From a virus: a stretch of 41,505 nt of DNA. This document shows positions 29,910 through 41,487 of this stretch, one piece after another; position 1 is the stretch's first letter; each line of letters starts with the position of its first letter. Below the pieces are notes generated by a model. That model saw only the letters and a program-made list of their open reading frames with translations, had not been told where the DNA came from and did no database searches. The translations under genes were made by a program, and so were the position numbers. The stretch lies in IMG/VR virus record IMGVR_UViG_3300044712_001036, positions 1-41,505 of that record; one strand, written 5' to 3'.

Positions 29910-30264
29910 CGGAAGGACCTCCTTTTATTTCACTTGCGATGTGCGAAGGGGCATATAGACCCCCGGTCCTCGACCGGGATCGGAGCGAGGGGACCCCCCC
30001 CAGGCCGGCGGGTCGGTCCGGTCGGGTCCGCCTCGAGAACCGCGGGGCCCTGGCGGTCGGGTCCGAGAATGTCACGGTTCGAGCCGTGCCCTTTCCGGGG
30101 CAGGTCACCGGGCCACCGAAAAACACCATGCCGTTGCCATGAAACGCTGGCGGATTCCGGTTTTGCCCAGGAAGGTTTACATAATTAAGAGTATCGGACG
30201 TCCCGGAAACGCTCATCAACACAGGGGCGAATTGATAACATTGTGACATTGTAGGAACGTGCAT
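29902..30264 (-). CDS. Doubtful ORF in a GC-rich region (120 aa)
   Basis: An open frame starts with an ATG that shares a base with the TGA of the TerS candidate and runs to the next gene. The sequence has little regularity, becomes Arg/Pro/Gly-rich, and no domain is recognised. The DNA here is unusually GC-rich with hairpins and repeats, so an open frame may be chance. Perfect packing between neighbours favours a gene, composition argues against. If it is not coding, 29924-30263 is a 340-base intergenic region next to the packaging genes. Confidence 0.3.
   Translation of the reverse strand: MHVPTMSQCYQFAPVLMSVSGTSDTLNYVNLPGQNRNPPAFHGNGMVFFGGPVTCPGKGTARTVTFSDPTARAPRFSRRTRPDRPAGLGGVPSLRSRSRTGGLYAPSHIASEIKGGPSVG
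29962..30088. repeat. GC-rich hairpins and 12-bp direct repeats near terS, pac candidate
   Basis: CGGTCGGGTCCG occurs at 30019-30030 and 30054-30065, 35 bp apart, with a partial copy GGTCGGTCCG at 30011-30020. A perfect 7-bp stem CCCGGTC/GACCGGG (29962-29978, loop CTC) lies at the left, and CACGGT/GCCGTG (30073-30088, one T-G pair) at the right. Terminase recognition sites usually lie in or near terS, so this is a pac candidate. tRNA-like reading of the GGTTCGAG was checked and does not fold. Confidence 0.45.
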
Positions 30265-30818
30265 CACTTTTCGCCTTTGGAGCGGGGCACCTTTGCACCT
30301 TCCGCCGGCTGAGAAATCGTAACGACCTCACCAGGTTCCGGGAGAGTGGCCGGCCGATCGGGCTGGTTCTTCTGGACCTCAATCACCTTCCCCGCGGGGC
30401 GGTCCGCCTGCATCTGCATGGAGATCAACGAGAAAACGTTGCTGGTAGACTCGCCATCAAGGAGTCGCTGCTTTTCAATGGCAATGCCCAGGCCGATCAT
30501 CAGGTCCTTGAAGTTTGCGGACTCGATTACGCCAGGTTCTTTCAGCTCAGCCAGAATAGATGAGCTGATCAACACAAGATCGGAAGAGGTTTTCTTTTTA
30601 AGTTCGTTCGCCGTTGCCTCTTCCATCTCATCCAGGCCGCTATCCAGGACCCCTTTAACTCCGACATGAGAAACCCCGAGCTTCTTGGCAATCGCCCGTA
30701 AAGACATTCCCTGGTCTCTCATCACCTTGGCCATGACTTTCTTGAAGGCAGGGATTTTATGGTCTGGTCTGTTTACCTGCTTCTTGTTGGGATCGGGAGG
30801 AAGTTTCTTCCTTGGCAT
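30264..30818 (-). CDS. Terminase small subunit candidate
   Basis: The 184-residue protein has a basic head, a helix-turn-helix at about 38-58 (MSLRAIAKKLGVSHVGVKGVL), a helical middle (DEMEEATANELKKK, about 62-130) and an acidic/basic tail. This HTH-plus-helical-oligomerisation layout, a few genes before terL, is that of small terminase subunits that recognise the packaging site. The ATG at 30818 was chosen over a longer reading because it starts two bases after the upstream stop, with GGAGG about 13 bases upstream. It could also be another DNA-binding regulator. Confidence 0.65.
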   Translation of the reverse strand: MPRKKLPPDPNKKQVNRPDHKIPAFKKVMAKVMRDQGMSLRAIAKKLGVSHVGVKGVLDSGLDEMEEATANELKKKTSSDLVLISSSILAELKEPGVIESANFKDLMIGLGIAIEKQRLLDGESTSNVFSLISMQMQADRPAGKVIEVQKNQPDRPATLPEPGEVVTISQPAEGAKVPRSKGEK

Positions 30819-30820
30819 GG

Positions 30821-31306
30821 TTACGCCGTCACCTCCTCGAGCCCGACACACTCTTTCTTCTCCCTGGCTTCCTTCTGGTCTCTTCTCACTTGTGCCTGAT
30901 ACTCCTTCCATGTCTTCCCGCCAAGGACACAGGCAGGGTAATCAGGGTTCACATAGCAGCAGTAAGCCATCAAAATCCCGTTGACCAGTTTGTCCCTGGT
31001 CGGCTCCTTCCCGTCCTTGGTAACGTAATCCTCGAGCAGAGAGTCCAAGCGCTTCCCAGCTTCTTCTGGTATCACTGGGATTAGTTCCAGACAGAGATCA
31101 GAGAGTTCTGTTGTCCCTGAGAGAATTTTGATGATTCCGGCCTTGTTTTCCCGCAACATGGCAACGACGTTGCCTGGTGGGACAGGTCGGAACCCCAGAG
31201 TAAAATCAGGTTCTTTTCCTTCAACCCACAGAGAGACACCAGAACGGTTACAGAAGAGTATGGTCTCTATGGGGGAGACTGGGGATTTGGTAGTCAATTC
31301 GGGCAT
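30821..31306 (-). CDS. Hypothetical protein after the primase (161 aa)
   Basis: The protein has an N-terminal strand-rich part (ETILFCNRSGVSLWVEG), then helices and a Cys-containing segment (MAYCCYVNPDYPACVLGG) before a basic Lys/Arg-rich tail. I see no nuclease or nucleotide-binding motif. The start lies two bases beyond the primase stop and the end two bases before the TerS candidate. It sits at the border between replication and packaging genes. No family is recognised. Confidence 0.65.
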   Translation of the reverse strand: MPELTTKSPVSPIETILFCNRSGVSLWVEGKEPDFTLGFRPVPPGNVVAMLRENKAGIIKILSGTTELSDLCLELIPVIPEEAGKRLDSLLEDYVTKDGKEPTRDKLVNGILMAYCCYVNPDYPACVLGGKTWKEYQAQVRRDQKEAREKKECVGLEEVTA

Positions 31307-31308
31307 GG

Positions 31309-33990
31309 TTAAATTCGTCCTTCCTGGTCTGAAATAATTTCGCCTGGGTGGTGTAGCTGGTTTCTAGATACACCTAGCAGCACCCCACCTGATTCTTGCT
31401 CCTGGCCTGCTTCTGATGGTTTGGTGTAGTTGGTGTAGCTATTTTCCCCTTCCTTTCCCTTTTCTTCTTCTCCATCCTTTTTTGCCCCCTCGCCATCCCT
31501 CTTCCCTTCTTCTTTCTCTTCTTTTTCTGTATAAAGGGAGAAATCAGCTACACCAGCTACACCCTTGGATCTGTCGCCTGCTTTAATGCCTGTTTCATGG
31601 GTGGTGCAGCTGGGTGTAGCTAAGTTTTCAGCTACACCTTTTTCCCCGCCATCCTGGTCAAAGGTGACCACGGCCCTGACTCCTCGTTTTTGCCGGGTGA
31701 AATCAATGTTGATTCCAAGCGTCCGGAGATCCGGTAAAATGCGGCGAATTTTTCCAGATAACCGAGTGGAGTCGGCCGGCCAGTCTCTTCTCTTCTTCGC
31801 CGTTTCCGGAGCAATTTTATTCAATTCCTCCAGCAGGTCACTGACCATTCCGCCCCAATACTTCTTGTCTTCGGCGAACTCTTGAATAGCCTTCGCCAGA
31901 GGCGAGCTTTCAATAGCGTTTTCGACCGCATGAGCGGCCGAGATCCGATAGGTCTGGATGAAGGTGTCTTTGGGCATTTCAAGACCAGCCTCGGCAGCAA
32001 TCACCCAGTTGGCAAAGTCGGCCATCCTGGGAACTCCCTCAGGGGGACCAGCCTCTGGCTTGTGATTCTTCAGAGCAACGGAAACCGCAGAGAGCAGAGC
32101 CCCAAGGATCCGCGGCCTGGCGGCTTCAAACTCGGCCATGATGACACGCTCTTCTCTCCGGGCAGTATCGGGAATCGGGTCCAGGTTCAGGATCAGGGCC
32201 CGGTTTCTCAGGTCTCCGCGGTGGGCAACGTCATCAATACCATTCAGGATTTGCGGCCTGGTGGCTTCCGTGATTGATTCTTCGTTGTTGGTATACAGTT
32301 CCCGCTTCGAGAACCCGCCGCCGGTGGCCAGGCGACAGAAAATGTCAGACAGACGATCGGGAATCCCTGAGAGGTTGTCGAAACAGATGACCCAGGAATT
32401 GTGAGCAGCAATCAAAATATCTTCATCTTCCTTGGGTATGCAGCGGATCGGGGCCAGGTTCGGATCGATGATCCCGCGGAGCAGCCTGGACATGGTTGAT
32501 TTTGCGGTCCCTTGTTCTCCCTGGAGGATCAGAACAGGGTAGGGGCCCTTGGGATGAAGTGAGCCGACCAGCCAGGCAAGGGTGAGAATCCATGATTCAT
32601 CCTGGTGGCAGTTGATGAGCGGCCGCAGTTCGTTCAGGGATCCGCCCGTCACAGGTTCCGGGAGGGGCAGCATGGACTTGGAGCGCCGGAACTTCACCGG
32701 AGGATCCTGGATGATCCGCCAGCCGTCCGCGGTGATCTCGATGCAACGCCAGGCATCATCACAAAGGTCCAGATATATTTTCAACCCTTCCGGGGTGTCC
32801 AGGTGACCGACACGGACGAAAAGGTTTTCCATCCGGGCTTGTTTGGGACCAAATTCCGCTTGAGCAGCAATGGCATCAGAGATCCGGCGGGCGTTCGTAT
32901 CGCTCAGGGACTTTGAAAACGTTGCCTGGTTCAAAGCCATCAGCCACCAGCGGAAAGACGGCGACTGGATGAGCAGGTTTTGCCGGCCGGACGTTGTTGG
33001 AACGGTGGCATGAGCCCCGACCGCGGTCCGGAAAAGATCGATTTGTTCGAGAGCCAGGGACATAAGACGTTCAACTTCAGTAGGGAGAACCTTCTTTTTC
33101 GGTGATTGTTTGGGCCCGGGCTCAGGGTCAGAAGACTCGGGAGCCTCGGGAGCCTGGCCGGCCGGATCCGCCGGAGACTCCTCAGCCTGGCCGGCGGAAT
33201 TCTCTTCGGGCTCCTTCCATTCTGGAGCCGTCCGAACCAGTTCAAGGAACGCTTCCCGGGTTCCGCCCTGGGTAATCCAGTCAGAAGCATCCTTCACACC
33301 ATCGCCTGGCAGCTCGAGAACAACAACAGAAGCAGCCTTCCCATGGAGATTGTCCCGGACCTGGGCCGCGTGTTTCTGGCCGGCAAACTTCTTGCCCGCA
33401 TTGTCTTTGTCGGCAACGATCACCACATCCCGGCCGTTGAGGGTGTTTGAAAACCAGGATCTCCACTTGCCCGCGCCCATCGGATTACACGTTGCCGTGA
33501 AACCCAGGGCCCGCAGGTTATCAACATCCTTTTCCCCCTCACACACAACCACCATTCCCTGAGAAGCCAGCAGCTCAGGCAGGCGATAGAGAACCAGGTC
33601 CACGTCCTTCAGATTCCAGATCCATTTATCCGCCTGGTCGGGATCCGGCCGGCGTTGTCGGAAAGACTTGGGATCAAACCGGACCGCCTGGAAAAGCAGC
33701 TTGCCGGACGCGTCCAGGTAATCATAGGTAGCAACGATCCGGCTTCTGGGCTTGTCTTCTTTCGGCGGGAACAGATCGGACATGGTAAGACTCAGAGCAG
33801 AAAGGACCGACTCAGCAGAACATCCAGCCTGGCAATGCAGCACGGTCTTCCCGTCCTTGCCGACAGCCACGGATAAGGACGCTTTCTTGTCCTCATGAGC
33901 AGGGCAGCACGCTTGCCAACCAGCGGTAGTTATTTTGATAGAGGTGAGCCGGGACAAGATACCCGGTGTCACCCCATGATTGTCACCCAT
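31309..33990 (-). CDS. Primase-helicase (Toprim plus SF3-like ATPase)
   Basis: The 893-residue protein has a zinc-binding primase head (Cys29, His32, Cys53, Cys57), a Toprim domain (VVVCEGEKD with Glu151; IVADKDNAG with Asp194 and Asp196), a Pro/Glu linker (about 258-300), and an ATPase with Walker A GEQGTAKST (491-499) and Walker B VICFDN (534-539). The tail (about 780-893) is low complexity, Glu/Lys/Gly-rich. It should prime and unwind DNA at the phage origin, like the P4 alpha type. The ATG at 33990 has GGAGG six bases upstream and overlaps the methyltransferase stop by eight bases; a longer start was rejected. The 3' end carries iteron-like repeats (31350-31638). Confidence 0.9.
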   Translation of the reverse strand: MGDNHGVTPGILSRLTSIKITTAGWQACCPAHEDKKASLSVAVGKDGKTVLHCQAGCSAESVLSALSLTMSDLFPPKEDKPRSRIVATYDYLDASGKLLFQAVRFDPKSFRQRRPDPDQADKWIWNLKDVDLVLYRLPELLASQGMVVVCEGEKDVDNLRALGFTATCNPMGAGKWRSWFSNTLNGRDVVIVADKDNAGKKFAGQKHAAQVRDNLHGKAASVVVLELPGDGVKDASDWITQGGTREAFLELVRTAPEWKEPEENSAGQAEESPADPAGQAPEAPESSDPEPGPKQSPKKKVLPTEVERLMSLALEQIDLFRTAVGAHATVPTTSGRQNLLIQSPSFRWWLMALNQATFSKSLSDTNARRISDAIAAQAEFGPKQARMENLFVRVGHLDTPEGLKIYLDLCDDAWRCIEITADGWRIIQDPPVKFRRSKSMLPLPEPVTGGSLNELRPLINCHQDESWILTLAWLVGSLHPKGPYPVLILQGEQGTAKSTMSRLLRGIIDPNLAPIRCIPKEDEDILIAAHNSWVICFDNLSGIPDRLSDIFCRLATGGGFSKRELYTNNEESITEATRPQILNGIDDVAHRGDLRNRALILNLDPIPDTARREERVIMAEFEAARPRILGALLSAVSVALKNHKPEAGPPEGVPRMADFANWVIAAEAGLEMPKDTFIQTYRISAAHAVENAIESSPLAKAIQEFAEDKKYWGGMVSDLLEELNKIAPETAKKRRDWPADSTRLSGKIRRILPDLRTLGINIDFTRQKRGVRAVVTFDQDGGEKGVAENLATPSCTTHETGIKAGDRSKGVAGVADFSLYTEKEEKEEGKRDGEGAKKDGEEEKGKEGENSYTNYTKPSEAGQEQESGGVLLGVSRNQLHHPGEIISDQEGRI
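31350..31638. repeat. GGTGTAGCT iteron cluster, candidate replication origin
   Basis: Forward boxes GGTGTAGCT or near copies begin at 31350, 31423 (GGTGTAGTT), 31432, 31603 (GGTGCAGCT) and 31613. Reverse boxes AGCTACACC begin at 31546, 31555 and 31630, with weaker copies at 31366 and 31376. Many are paired at 9-10 bp steps. A polypyrimidine stretch on the plus strand (31441-31540) lies between them. Iterons inside an initiator gene are known for lambda O; P4-type primase-helicases bind similar GGTGAACAG boxes. They explain the odd low-complexity protein tail. Confidence 0.7.
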
Positions 33991-35158
33991 TGGAAACCTC
34001 CATAGACATAATGGCCCGTCCAATCAATTCAACGACCTGAGGAACTACCGAGTTCCCCGCAGCTTTGAGAGCGTTTCTGTTGGCAAATCGCACCAGTCTT
34101 GTGGATACCCCATCAGTTGCAGCACCCACCGAGAATTCAGAGAGCCGCGGGGCTTCCCATTGGTGTTGTTGCTCTCCGGGCCTGGAAGGCCACGCATTAC
34201 GGCCCCCGGAACCGTATCCCGCGTCATTTGGGATGGAGGAAAAGTGTCGTTCTTGCCATCCTGAGCCGCCGGGGTTGGCCAGCTCGACGCCGCAGCCGTG
34301 ATTAGATTCACCCCGCCCGAGTTCCGCGCCGACTTGGTTTCCTTTGTTTCCGGACCGCGTTCCCCGTCGCACTTGTTCGGTGTCGGCCATTGCCTCGCCT
34401 GAACCGTTATCGAATCCCCGGACGTTGTTCCCTTCTCTCGGCCGTCCGATGCCTTGGGGGTCAACCAATTCTCTCGAACCTGTTGCCCCAGGGTTTCCGT
34501 GAATTCCGGGGAAGAATACCCGTCCACCTTGTTGGCTCTCGGAGTCTGTCATCTGGCCATTGCCGGAAGTCCGTTCCTCGGATCGTTCGATATTTCCCCA
34601 CGCTTCTCCGCATCGTTCGCCCGGGCAGTTGGCCACAATCCAGGCTCTGTCTCTTTTGTGCGGAGCCCCGACCGCCCAAGCACCCACCACGGACGCCCAG
34701 ACGGAGTAGCCGGATTCTTCCAGGTCAGCAATAACCCGGTCAGCCCCTCTAGTTCGGAGAGCAGGAACATTCTCAGCCACAACCCACCGGGGTCTAATTT
34801 CTCGGACAAGTCGGAGCATTTCAAACCAGAGACCGGACCTTGTTCCCTCTTTAATTCCAGCCCCTTTCCCGGCAACGGAAATGTCTTGGCAGGGAAACCC
34901 TCCGGCAATAACATCGATGGATCTTCCGGGGCCGACAACCCCATCCATTCTGAGAATGTAAGATGACAAAAGTTTAACGTCGTCATAAATCTTTACCCCC
35001 GGAAAGTTTTTGGCAAGGACGGCTCGCGGGAACGGCTCTATCTCACAAAATGCGGCCGTTGTCATTCCGGATCTATGCAGACCCAGAGAGATGCCGCCAA
35101 TCCCTGAGAACAGGTCAAGGACGCGCAGTCTTTTTACCCCATGATTGTCTTGAGACAT
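33983..35158 (-). CDS. DNA cytosine-C5 methyltransferase
   Basis: The 391-residue protein has motif I DLFSGIGG (15-22), motif IV GGFPCQDIS with catalytic Cys90, motif VI ENV (129-131), motif VIII HKRDRAW (167-173) and motif X GNSVVPQ (about 369-375). It methylates cytosine C5 in DNA, probably to protect phage DNA from host restriction. No restriction enzyme is adjacent, so it is an orphan methyltransferase. Between motifs VIII and X, the target-recognition region is built of repeated units starting (V/L/M)-(A/V/T)-(D/N) that are also open in another frame (see 34045-34986). It starts inside the end of the VRR-NUC gene and ends inside the primase start. Confidence 0.93.
   Translation of the reverse strand: MSQDNHGVKRLRVLDLFSGIGGISLGLHRSGMTTAAFCEIEPFPRAVLAKNFPGVKIYDDVKLLSSYILRMDGVVGPGRSIDVIAGGFPCQDISVAGKGAGIKEGTRSGLWFEMLRLVREIRPRWVVAENVPALRTRGADRVIADLEESGYSVWASVVGAWAVGAPHKRDRAWIVANCPGERCGEAWGNIERSEERTSGNGQMTDSESQQGGRVFFPGIHGNPGATGSRELVDPQGIGRPREGNNVRGFDNGSGEAMADTEQVRRGTRSGNKGNQVGAELGRGESNHGCGVELANPGGSGWQERHFSSIPNDAGYGSGGRNAWPSRPGEQQHQWEAPRLSEFSVGAATDGVSTRLVRFANRNALKAAGNSVVPQVVELIGRAIMSMEVSNG
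34045..34986 (-). other. Conserved-looking second reading frame inside the methyltransferase gene
   Basis: Within the methyltransferase gene, on the same strand but another frame, lies an open reading frame from ATG 34986 to 34045. It is broken once by a TGA at 34551-34549. It reads like a phage protein family I recall: FPAKTF, a GLKCSDLSEKLDP segment, and repeated WPTP-type units (at 34635, 34551 where the stop replaces Trp, 34467, 34389 and 34281), then LNSRWVLQLMGYPQDWCDL. In this frame units share W-x-T-[P/A]-x-[A/K]-x-D-G. Whether it is translated is unknown. Confidence 0.55.
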
Positions 35159-37502: not shown

Positions 37503-37867
37503 TAGAATTCCTGGTCCTCGCTGGTCTTCCGATACATGCCCTCAGGGGCAGGGGGAGCAGACCAAGGCACTTCCGAGCGATAGCCCATAGGAGGGATAGC
37601 CTTTGAAGGCCCGATTTCCTCAGCCGATACGCTTCGTTGATTTTCAGGGAGCTTGTTTTCATCCAGCTTGTGATCACCACACCAGTCGTTGACGAAAACA
37701 GCCGGATACCCGCTCAGGGTTGGAGCATGACGACGGCAACGGCCCATGTGGATAACAGGCTTGTCGACTCCGGCCAGCGTGGTAGCTATTCCACCGGAAG
37801 CCTTCCCAACAAACCACATGCAGGTTTTGCAGCGCATGCCATCAGATCGATGTTTCCAGGGGTCCAT
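37502..37867 (-). CDS. Small Cys-rich phage protein (121 aa)
   Basis: The protein has a CKTCMWF start motif, then GRCRRHAPT and FVNDWCGDHK, giving four Cys in a C-x2-C ... C ... C pattern that probably binds zinc. I recall this GxCRR-x-APT...DWCG pattern as a common small phage protein of unknown role. The C-terminal third is Pro/Ser-rich and flexible. The ATG shares a base with the TAA of the upstream gene. Confidence 0.75.
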   Translation of the reverse strand: MDPWKHRSDGMRCKTCMWFVGKASGGIATTLAGVDKPVIHMGRCRRHAPTLSGYPAVFVNDWCGDHKLDENKLPENQRSVSAEEIGPSKAIPPMGYRSEVPWSAPPAPEGMYRKTSEDQEF

Positions 37868-38607: not shown

Positions 38608-38774
38608 CCCTCCTTTTTCTTTGCCGGCGCCTGAGCGGTCACCGGATTCTTGCAGTCATGGCACACAGGGTTTTCCTAGATCTTCTTCTCCCAGCGATCC
38701 CGGTCAATGTCACGGGACAGCATGGTCTTCACGGGTTGGTTGCAGACGCGGCACTTCCAGTTGATGACCTTCAC
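38604..38774 (-). pseudogene. Zinc-ribbon gene split by an in-frame amber codon
   Basis: From a GTG start at 38774 (overlapping the nuclease stop as GTGA) the frame encodes KCRVCNQPV and, after an in-frame TAG at 38678-38676, NPVCHDCKNPVT. It ends in TGA at 38606-38604, overlapping the next start. The two CxxC pairs needed for one zinc ribbon lie on either side of the amber. Both ends keep normal operon overlaps, so the TAG is either a recent mutation, a sequencing error or a recoded codon. TAG ends the gp10-like gene normally, so the code is not changed genome-wide. Confidence 0.7.
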
Positions 38775-39979
38775 GCCACAGCCTCCGTTGCATCCCCGTC
38801 CTTGGCGATCGACGCGGTGACCTTCACGGATTTCCCGGCAGGGGTCCGCAGCTCTTTGACCAGGGCCTCCAGGGCTTTCTTCTGGTCCGGCAACGACTTA
38901 CACAGATCCCCAAACGCGCCGGAATCGAATTTCAAAATCTCGAACGGTGGCCGGCCGATCAGTTCCTGGGCCTTCACGAAGATTTCCCCGACCTGGTAAT
39001 CGTAGCCGGTGGTATATTCGATGGCCTTCACCAGGCGCCCGTTGATCTTCTGGGGACCATGTTCCCGGAGCAGGGCTTTCCGCTTCTCGTTGAGATCCTT
39101 CTCAAACGATTCCGCGGCCTTCTTGATGGCGGTGATCTTCTCGAACGCTTCCATGATGGCGGGAAGGTTCTCGATCTTCGCCTCGATCTCATACAGCTGA
39201 GGGTTAGGGGGTGCCGCGACCTGTTGATTGAAAGCCGCGCACTTGGATTTCAGAGAGCAGTAATCGCAGAACTTGTTGGGGATTTCCGGGAAGTTTTCCG
39301 GGTTGTTTTTGTCCTTGTGAGCAGCCAGGAACGCAGACGCCAGACCGTCCAGATACGTTGCCGCAGACTTTAACGATTCTTCATCCCACCTGGTCGATCG
39401 ATACGCGCCGCCCTTCTCGAGCCCGAAGAACGCCACTTCAATTTGAGACACCTGATACTTGAGGTAAGCAGCCAGGGCGTAACACGTCAGCTGGAGATCG
39501 TCCTCTTGTTCGGTGAGCCCGGTCTTCCAGTCGATGATCCGGAAGGTCCCATCCTCCATCACATCAACGAAATCCATGCCACCACGCAAGCCCCACACGC
39601 CAGGAACAACCTCGACCTGGAAGAAGGTTTTCTTGCCGTCCTTGAAGTTGAAGGAGACTTCCCCGTCTTCAGATTCAATGGTAACGATACTGTCAGGGTT
39701 GATATTCAACCGCTCAGATTCCCGGACGGCCAGGTAACACTTCTCAGCACGGGCCCGATAGTCTTCACCAACGCCGGCCAGCTTCGCCGCTTCGTTGTAT
39801 CCATCCCAGAAATTGTGACCGCGGAAGAATTCAGCCAGGCCGGCATGAACGCAGCCGCCGAATTTCGTTGCTGGTGATTCCGTGAATTTCTCATCCCGGA
39901 ACCGACGCGGGCACCGGCGGAAGGACTCGAGCTTTGAAGGGGAAATGAATTCTACTTTCGCTTGAGGGTTCTGGTTCAT
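38771..39979 (-). CDS. RecB/Cas4-like PD-(D/E)xK nuclease
   Basis: The 402-residue protein has the RecB-family nuclease core: FISPSKLESFRRCPRRF with Cys23, His45 in GGCVHAGL, Asp136, FRIIDWKTG with Asp150 and Lys152, and the QLTCYALA helix. With Cys23, a C-terminal CDYCSLKSKC (Cys238, 241, 247) makes a four-Cys set that can hold an iron-sulfur cluster, as in Cas4 and AddB. A second, helical domain follows (about 250-400). It should process DNA ends in phage recombination. The ATG overlaps the stop of the gp3-like gene (ATGA), so the two are likely partners. Confidence 0.88.
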   Translation of the reverse strand: MNQNPQAKVEFISPSKLESFRRCPRRFRDEKFTESPATKFGGCVHAGLAEFFRGHNFWDGYNEAAKLAGVGEDYRARAEKCYLAVRESERLNINPDSIVTIESEDGEVSFNFKDGKKTFFQVEVVPGVWGLRGGMDFVDVMEDGTFRIIDWKTGLTEQEDDLQLTCYALAAYLKYQVSQIEVAFFGLEKGGAYRSTRWDEESLKSAATYLDGLASAFLAAHKDKNNPENFPEIPNKFCDYCSLKSKCAAFNQQVAAPPNPQLYEIEAKIENLPAIMEAFEKITAIKKAAESFEKDLNEKRKALLREHGPQKINGRLVKAIEYTTGYDYQVGEIFVKAQELIGRPPFEILKFDSGAFGDLCKSLPDQKKALEALVKELRTPAGKSVKVTASIAKDGDATEAVA

Positions 39980-41403
39980 GCCTGGGCCCCCTGTCCTTGG
40001 TTCTGGGTTTTGATCTGACGGATCACATCACGGACAGCAACGGTTTCCTCGAGGGTCCACTTGTCGGCGTTGACTTCCGTTTTGTTGGTGGCCTTCTTCA
40101 CATAGATCACGAACGCCCCGCCGCCGATATTGTGAGCGGCCCGCAGCTTCAGGATCTCGTCAACGATGGCTTTCTTTTCCCCGTCCTCAGAACGGGCAGA
40201 CGCGGGAGGATTGGCCGGAGCCGAGGCAGTTGTGGACTTTGGGGGGGCGTAAGCCTGGGCCTCCTTCAGGGTTTTGAATTCCTTAAAGGCAGATCCCGGG
40301 CACTTGGGACATTTTTCCGGAAGGTTATGATCCGTGATCGTTGCCGCACAAACAGCGCAGGCAAAATGGCGGAGAGGTTTTTCCGCGGGGTTTTCCTGGG
40401 TCTTTTCAGGCGCCTTGTCTATGGGCTTTTCCTGGGCAACGGGAGCCGGATCCGCCTGAGTGACCGGGACCGCCGGAACGGTTTCAGCTTCCGCAACCGG
40501 GTCAGCCTTTCGAGCCTGGGCTTTCTTGGCCAGAGCGTCCGCCAACGTTTCCCGAGGTTTTTCCGGGTCAGCTTGGCCAGCCTGATCGGGGTGAAATTCC
40601 TCGATCTCGTCACGGTCAAGAGGTTCTTCGTCAGCTTTGCCCCGCTCGAAATCTTTGCGGACTTCAATGGCCAGGGTGTCCATCCGGATCCCGGCCTCAA
40701 GGCGCATGCGTTCGGTCTTGATGGCAGCCTCGAGCATTTGAACCGGAGAGCCCTTGAAGAACAGACCAACGACGCCGATCGTGGTCGGGTCACCTTTGGG
40801 GGTGAACGTTGCTTTCTTGAAATACTTCATGGTCAGGGGAATTCCGGCCAGCTTCCCACCCGTGCAGGCGGTCAGGAACTTCAAGGATCCGATGATATTG
40901 CTGATGCTGTTCCAGCTGGTGGTAGAGAATTTCCACACACCGCCGGCGATCTCGGCCGATCGGAGCAGACAATTCAGAACCCCGTGAGGTTTGCAGGGAT
41001 TCTTGTCCAGCTCGAGCCGGTTGCAGGGGCAGCCGACTTCTTTGTATTCACCGGTATTGAAGTCAACGACCTCGATACCTTTCTCTCCATCACCACGACA
41101 CAGGCACTTCTTTCCCTGGTAGAAAGCGTATTGCGTCCGGAAGTTCAGGGACTCCTTGCCAGGTTCTTCGTTGTAAAGGAGAACGATCTCCAATTCCGTG
41201 GGCTTCTCGCCCACCTGAGCATGGACAGCCTGATCACGCTCGAAGTTGCCGTCCTTGCCGCGGTTCATCCCAGTGATAACGAAGCAGTCATACTTGACCG
41301 GGGCCCGATACTTCCCACCAGCCTGGGAGGTTCGTTCCTCGCCAACGCCGCCGATCTTGATACGCCCGATTTCCGCCAGGCGCGGGGTCAGATTTTTGAT
41401 CAT
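39976..41403 (-). CDS. RDF/phiC31 gp3-like phage protein
   Basis: The 475-residue protein begins LTPRLAEIGRIKIGG and continues with KYRAPVKYDCFVIT, then LYNEEPGKESLNFRTQYAFYQGKKCLCRGDGEKG. This is the pattern I recall for gp3-like recombination directionality factors, also annotated as hydrolase or metal-binding proteins. A Cys cluster (CPCNRLELDKNPCKPHGVLNC) follows. The middle is Ala/Pro/Glu-rich and flexible, and a zinc ribbon CAVCAA...CPKC lies in the C-terminal third. Roles in the family include DNA binding and excision control; which one applies here is not decided. The ATG at 41403 has GAGGAGG and AAACC before it; a GTG six codons upstream was rejected. Confidence 0.65.
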   Translation of the reverse strand: MIKNLTPRLAEIGRIKIGGVGEERTSQAGGKYRAPVKYDCFVITGMNRGKDGNFERDQAVHAQVGEKPTELEIVLLYNEEPGKESLNFRTQYAFYQGKKCLCRGDGEKGIEVVDFNTGEYKEVGCPCNRLELDKNPCKPHGVLNCLLRSAEIAGGVWKFSTTSWNSISNIIGSLKFLTACTGGKLAGIPLTMKYFKKATFTPKGDPTTIGVVGLFFKGSPVQMLEAAIKTERMRLEAGIRMDTLAIEVRKDFERGKADEEPLDRDEIEEFHPDQAGQADPEKPRETLADALAKKAQARKADPVAEAETVPAVPVTQADPAPVAQEKPIDKAPEKTQENPAEKPLRHFACAVCAATITDHNLPEKCPKCPGSAFKEFKTLKEAQAYAPPKSTTASAPANPPASARSEDGEKKAIVDEILKLRAAHNIGGGAFVIYVKKATNKTEVNADKWTLEETVAVRDVIRQIKTQNQGQGAQA

Positions 41404-41487
41404 GGTTTCCTCCTCATTCACTCGCCGGAGCCGGAGCCGGAGCCGGAGCCGTAGCCGTAGCCGGAGCCGGAGCCGGAGCCGTAGCCG
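41372..41487. repeat. Second copy of the terminal direct repeat
   Basis: Identical to bases 1-116. Beyond 41487 the hexamer order differs from the copy at 117 onward, which points to variation or collapse of the array rather than a simple end repeat. Confidence 0.9.

Follow-up and report, generated by a model that had tools for sequence, protein, structure and literature searches.

We asked why the 3′ end of a viral primase-helicase gene is crowded with short repeats in both orientations, and whether these repeats form a replication origin that the gene carries for its own product. The window, meaning the whole stretch of DNA analysed here, is a virus record of 41,505 bases, and its genes include those for an integrase and a CI-like repressor. 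Its likely initiator is a 904-aa primase-helicase, and the preliminary description had located an iteron-type origin at the 3′ end of the corresponding gene. The features of gene and repeats (boxes) are the following:

31309–34023, minus strand: primase-helicase gene, likely initiator, 904 aa.
33262–33951, minus strand: zinc finger (residues 25–70) and Toprim primase (residues 158–254) parts, from Pfam and PHROG.
31906–33081, minus strand: helicase part, residues about 315–706, from the structure model.
31657–31860, minus strand: C-terminal winged helix, residues 722–789, proposed box-binding domain, from the secondary structure of the model and co-change with the boxes.
31312–31656, minus strand: low-complexity coding tail of 115 codons, which holds all nine boxes.
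31350–31358, plus strand: box GGTGTAGCT.
31366–31374, minus strand: box GGTGTATCT, 1 mismatch.
31423–31440, plus strand: tandem pair GGTGTAGTT GGTGTAGCT with a 9-bp period, flanking the core.
31442–31528, no strand assigned: 87-nt tract, pyrimidine-rich on the plus strand and purine-rich on the coding strand.
31529–31545, minus strand: short pyrimidine/TATA element beside the inner box pair, a possible melting site judged from its sequence.
31546–31563, minus strand: tandem pair GGTGTAGCT GGTGTAGCT with a 9-bp period, facing the other pair.
31603–31621, plus strand: tandem pair GGTGCAGCT (1 mismatch) and GGTGTAGCT with a 10-bp period.
31630–31638, minus strand: box GGTGTAGCT.

The Pfam matches behind the zinc finger and Toprim parts are weak and under the curated cut-offs, and the PHROG match of the primase-helicase to DNA primase has an E value of 1.2e-30. 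For the helicase part, Pfam and NCBIfam give the family no name of its own. Elsewhere in the window, positions 39976–41421 (minus strand) encode a 481-aa protein that matches a Gp3-like ‘recombination directionality factor-like’ family (E 1.5e-33) and is adjoined by a PD-(D/E)XK nuclease gene (38771–39979). Rfam and tRNA searches of the window gave no matches.

With at most one mismatch allowed, GGTGTAGCT occurs 12 times in the whole window against 3.4 expected by shuffling, and 12 occurrences were reached in 0 of 100 shuffles. Nine of the 12 boxes cluster in 31350–31638, and the remaining three (19253, 24394 and 24674) correspond to the chance level. The preliminary description had counted at least eight boxes in both orientations in under 300 bases; there are nine, and its interval of 31350–31638 is exact to the base. 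They start at 31350+, 31366-, 31423+, 31432+, 31546-, 31555-, 31603+, 31613+ and 31630-, which on the coding strand gives the orientations + - - + + - - + -. The boxes had also been described as lying mostly in pairs 9–10 bp apart, which holds for three tandem pairs, whose starts lie 9, 9 and 10 bp apart; three boxes stand alone. The polypyrimidine stretch reported amid the boxes is real, with a C+T content of 93% over 31441–31530. Between the two facing tandem pairs lies a 105-bp core, composed of the short pyrimidine/TATA element and the 87-nt purine tract, and the facing pairs can fold as a hairpin (−18.5 kcal/mol, z −6.1).

A direct search of viral and genome collections found no close relatives of the whole 904-aa protein. 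Searching by tblastn with the helicase part retrieved one phage (two records) and 31 plasmid records, and the plasmid homologues include archaeal (Methanothrix), cyanobacterial, Chloroflexota, Methylobacterium and Streptomyces plasmids. An alignment of five tblastn relatives and the window was used to fetch further loci, from which the best 80 of 155 viral and the best 80 of 225 genome relatives were kept; with nine annotated records this gave 169 relatives, or 170 loci with the window. Statistics were based on 122 non-redundant relatives and the window, of which 121 loci (window included) have at least 300 nt of 3′ sequence. By their record titles, the fetched loci, many of them metagenome-assembled genomes (MAGs), come from Bacillota, Acidobacteria, Alpha- and Gammaproteobacteria, Nitrospiraceae, Planctomycetota, Chloroflexi and Deltaproteobacteria, and further from Actinomycetes, Rubrobacter, Armatimonadetes, Hydrogenedentota, Nitrospinae, Atribacteria, Gemmatimonadetes, a Flavobacteriaceae MAG and the archaeon Methanocrinis.

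Arrays were scored in these loci by a word-count search that was blind to the box of the window and covered the 1200 bp surrounding the end of the helicase match. A score of at least 12 was obtained in 60 of 121 loci, compared with 6 of 121 control stretches taken from within the gene and 9 of 110 taken from upstream, and a score of at least 14 in 43 of 121 loci, compared with 0 of 121 and 6 of 110, respectively. Of the 121 loci, 50 had the strict arrangement, defined as a tandem pair and an inverted tandem pair within 300 bp, on the 3′ side of the helicase match; it was present in none of 121 inside-gene stretches and in none of 363 shuffles. In a held-out whole-genome sample of 19 usable loci, mostly distant homologues, the strict arrangement was found in 3 (controls 0) and a score of at least 12 in 6 (controls 2). 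The 3 of 19 indicate that nearer relatives commonly have the array and that it is sparse in distant homologues, some of which may have decayed or may have their origin in another place. The Stanieria and Methylobacterium homologues showed no convincing array. Phage Zeta1847 passes the score, yet its upstream control scores higher, so its array was judged unconvincing, although the phage stays in the counts. Relatives with a conserved protein tail and scrambled boxes had been named in the preliminary description as evidence to look for against an origin; the reverse was seen, in that the tails differ and arrays with a 9-bp period persist.

The window is one member of a family whose boxes have a 9-bp period and a core in common and differ in sequence. 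Although the 9-bp period was not a criterion of the array search, neighbours on the same strand were spaced by 9 bp in 160 of 295 cases (2 of 50 and 4 of 59 in controls), and the top words contained GACG or CGTC in 44 of 60 arrays (15 of 123 and 8 of 112 in controls of any score). Over 61 loci the mean box was T-G-(G/C)-(G/T)-G-A-C-G-N-T, as obtained by alignment to a running mean, which favours agreement. The 61 loci are the set with a score of at least 12 and L145, a Hydrogenedentota MAG that was added because its box resembles that of the window; both read GGTG-TA-G, with TA replacing the AC of the consensus. Variant boxes include GGTGAACTT in L057 and GGAGGCG in the archaeal loci L016 and L166, and GCGGACGGT and TTGCGACGCA are among the different box types of the relatives. 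In the two archaeal arrays (L016:4350–4680, Methanothrix; L166:5303–5784, Methanocrinis), GGAGTACAT and GGAGGCGAT are mixed in one 9-bp register. The genome of Fervidicola ferrireducens holds two family members, L106 and L120, whose boxes (TGCGGACAAT and TTGCGTCGCA) and wing sequences differ, which makes them a natural test pair for specificity.

Boxes of the GGTGTAG type were also seen directly 3′ of initiator genes from other families, at L006:8328–8440, L012:55–160 (D5_N/DUF5906) and L004:1604–1900 (VapE-like). A box-pattern search in viral contigs gave 12 loci, which by estimate is about the chance level for 16 fixed bases, and therefore only its dense clusters served as leads. These clusters, with 9–11 GGTGTAG boxes within 400 bp (L014:7204–7595, L011:6215–6525 and L008:11954–12270), lie beside genes that by Pfam are unrelated to the helicase of the window. 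GGTGTAG boxes may have arisen in more than one helicase family or have spread between families.

We then considered which part of the protein could recognise the boxes. An AlphaFold2 model of residues 308–805 (86 sequences, pLDDT 92.3) showed a helicase followed by a winged helix of the order helix-helix-helix-strand-wing-strand (model residues 420–482). The best structural match was the SaPI5 primase-helicase 7ola, with a Z score of 20.1 over 375 residues at about 10% identity; others were D5 of poxvirus and the corresponding mpox protein E5 (Z about 13–18.5) and SCCmec Cch 5dgk (Z 13.5). On the strength of the model, the helicase part is assigned to the SF3/D5-like AAA+ helicases. Box distance correlated with winged-helix distance when helicase distance was held constant (partial r 0.15, p 0.007), and the reverse control did not reach significance (r 0.09, p 0.12). 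In a sliding-window partial correlation, the wing came out best among 231 windows (z 2.1, p 0.024, before correction for picking the best). The idea that the boxes change together with the DNA-binding part of the protein thus finds a positive, statistically weak signal, and these sequence comparisons lend weak support to a co-change of boxes and winged helix. A column-by-column analysis of specificity residues was uninformative, its top columns including near-invariant helicase positions.

The nine boxes, the arrays of the relatives, the fold and the P4 layout described below support the proposal that the 3′ end of the primase-helicase gene contains an iteron-type origin. Judged from sequence, the 3′ coding tail of this initiator gene very probably holds such an origin, which the initiator's own winged helix would bind. 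In the proposed mechanism, the C-terminal winged helix would bind the 9-bp boxes. By analogy with SaPI, SCCmec and P4, the facing tandem pairs would load helicase rings on both sides of the pyrimidine/TATA core, this core would melt and the fused Toprim primase would make the first primers. Cumulative GC skew, which the preliminary description had put forward as a check, has no turning point at the array. Nor was an AT-rich melting element apparent, as spacers between facing boxes are no richer in A+T than the other spacers across the family, and the only DnaA box in the window (TTATNCACA, at 37747) lies far from the array.

Alternatively, the boxes could be operators through which a transcription regulator controls downstream genes, with replication starting elsewhere. 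The next gene begins at 31306, directly behind the tail, and a candidate regulator, a helix-turn-helix (HTH) protein, is encoded nearby at 30264–30911. However, the arrays are kept at the 3′ end of the helicase gene across many phyla and beside different neighbours, and their boxes point both ways at a 9-bp period, a feature also of the P4 replication region, so that we regard operators as improbable. Iteron-like arrays serve partition in some plasmids, and several of the relatives are plasmids, which raises the question of whether the array is a centromere-like partition site or an incompatibility site rather than an origin. Against this, the array follows the helicase gene, the par genes of plasmids L022 and L024 are located elsewhere, and no par gene was present among the window proteins scanned; a partition role is accordingly very unlikely.

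For an origin within a coding region, it was of interest to determine whether DNA or protein function sets the sequence of the tail. In 2000 dinucleotide shuffles of 31309–31700, the mean was 0.07 boxes and the maximum 2, against nine observed, and over 2000 synonymous recodings of the tail, which used codons sampled from this gene, the mean was 0.70 and no recoding exceeded 4. The nine boxes occupy 4 of 6 phase/orientation combinations and encode the peptides GVA, LATP, SCT, SYT, NYT, GVS and QLHH. Since the boxes stand in several frames and encode unrelated peptides, they form no protein repeat, and DNA sets the sequence of the tail, as the preliminary description had supposed. Among the 60 array-bearing loci, at least 75% of the boxes lie in the helicase reading frame in 41 and part of them in 5, and of the 42 loci that have at least six in-frame boxes, 37 use three or more phase/orientation combinations. 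The arrays beat all 200 synonymous recodings in 39 of 42 loci with in-frame arrays; as this test scores the best word picked from the same stretch, it is biased towards success, and the inside-gene and shuffled controls are fairer. That the repeats merely serve a repetitive protein tail, as its charged, low-complexity composition might suggest, is extremely unlikely and, unless the arrays of the relatives are unrelated, was ruled out by the reading frames and the recoding: the boxes stand in several frames and on both strands, synonymous recoding removes them from the window and from the majority of the 42 in-frame loci, and 14 of 60 arrays lie wholly outside the reading frame.

Tail length followed the position of the array. 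The median tail was 102 aa in 37 loci with an in-frame array, compared with 29.5 aa in 12 loci with the array downstream (p 1e-6) and 27.5 aa in 36 loci without an array (p 5e-11). The archaeal plasmid pH6Ac (L016) has the layout of the window, with in-frame box pairs around a 55-nt purine tract, and a Chlorohelix plasmid has the same layout, but past the stop codon. Because relatives with the array past the stop codon or without an array have short tails, the tail appears mainly to carry the origin DNA. In this replication gene, DNA function would take precedence over protein coding, the tail apparently being there to house the origin; in the proposed mechanism, the coding tail would exist chiefly as a carrier of origin DNA.

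A similar arrangement, with related short boxes, seems to exist in many uncharacterised bacterial and archaeal viruses, plasmids and genome-borne elements. We see about an even chance that they and the window form a broad, unannotated class of replicons in bacteria, archaea and viruses, with the origin in the 3′ coding tail of the helicase initiator and one box code (9-bp period, GACG core, and variants such as GTAG) that co-changes with the wing, so that origin and specificity would be predictable from sequence alone. An initiator helicase with 3′ iterons, as in P4 and SaPI, is an already known kind. What is new, as far as the literature was searched, is the embedding of the array in the coding tail across a wide unannotated family, together with the common 9-bp box code; a limited search found no description of iterons inside the primase/helicase gene for the helicase family of the window. 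The origins of most environmental phages and plasmids are unknown, and here a probable one can be read directly from sequence, in a helicase family that lacks a Pfam or NCBIfam name and spans archaeal plasmids to many bacterial phyla. A helicase with the origin in its own gene would be a self-sufficient mobile cassette, which would help to explain this spread, and initiator–origin specificity could be studied on the naturally diverse boxes and winged helices.

Among known systems, satellite phage P4 resembles the window in having tandem and inverted box pairs around a pyrimidine-rich core in the 3′ region of a primase-helicase gene. In the P4 record, its crr (‘cis required region for replication’) directly follows the 3′ end of the alpha gene and contains two 120-bp repeats, each with type 1 boxes as a 9-bp pair followed by an inverted pair, arranged around a pyrimidine-rich core. 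Zinc-finger and Toprim primase parts occur in P4 alpha as in the window protein, and PMC4234260 describes for alpha a winged helix that binds the origin repeats. Unlike in the window, crr is outside the alpha reading frame, its boxes are GTGAACA-like and its pairs face the other way; moreover, the annotated P4 ori is elsewhere and crr is a second element. P4 alpha and the window protein gave no BLASTP match, and profile comparison aligned the P-loop region only, with a probability of 6%. The early comparison with P4-type alpha stands for the layout, and the sequences have no recognisable relation. The window element 31529–31545 (coding strand TTTCTCCCTTTATACAG) resembles the P4 crr core TTTCTCCTTTTATTTCAG (L214:4331–4355), both being pyrimidine-rich, a likeness that may be due to chance.

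In SaPIs the origin is directly downstream of rep, and the Cch2 protein binds direct repeats 3′ of its gene, as stated in PMC7581432; in initiators of the SaPI Rep and SCCmec Cch and Cch2 kind, the C-terminal domain binds iterons directly downstream of the gene. The iterons of SaPI Rep and of SCCmec Cch and Cch2 differ from those of the window in lying downstream rather than in the coding tail, and in their box sequences. The record of pFP11 contains a homologue of the helicase of the window with a box array 3′ of the gene. PMC3583192 reports a rep/iteron replication locus for pFP11; for pWTY27 it states that replication needs repA, repB and a 300-bp iteron stretch to which RepA binds. pFP11 is unlike the window in its separate primase-polymerase gene and non-coding array, and its helicase homologue is not necessarily the published Rep; pWTY27, like pFP11 a Streptomyces theta plasmid, is likened by its rep and iteron locus. 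ORF904 of pRN1 combines a primase, an SF3 helicase and a C-terminal winged helix, with an essential element 3′ of its gene, and pRN1 is described without iterons and with a stem-loop origin in PMC4234260. ORF904 has an archaeo-eukaryotic primase, in contrast to the Toprim of the window protein, and a pRN1-type stem-loop origin without iterons was rejected for the window, where the hairpin is built from the iteron pairs themselves. In phage lambda, the initiator O has its own iterons inside its gene, as in the window; O is not known to be a helicase and ori lies mid-gene; the predicted fold of the window protein is a helicase with a winged helix. By its predicted fold and box layout, the window protein would group with the initiators of the P4 alpha and SaPI Rep type that have 3′ iterons, the array standing at the 3′ end of the gene or directly behind it.
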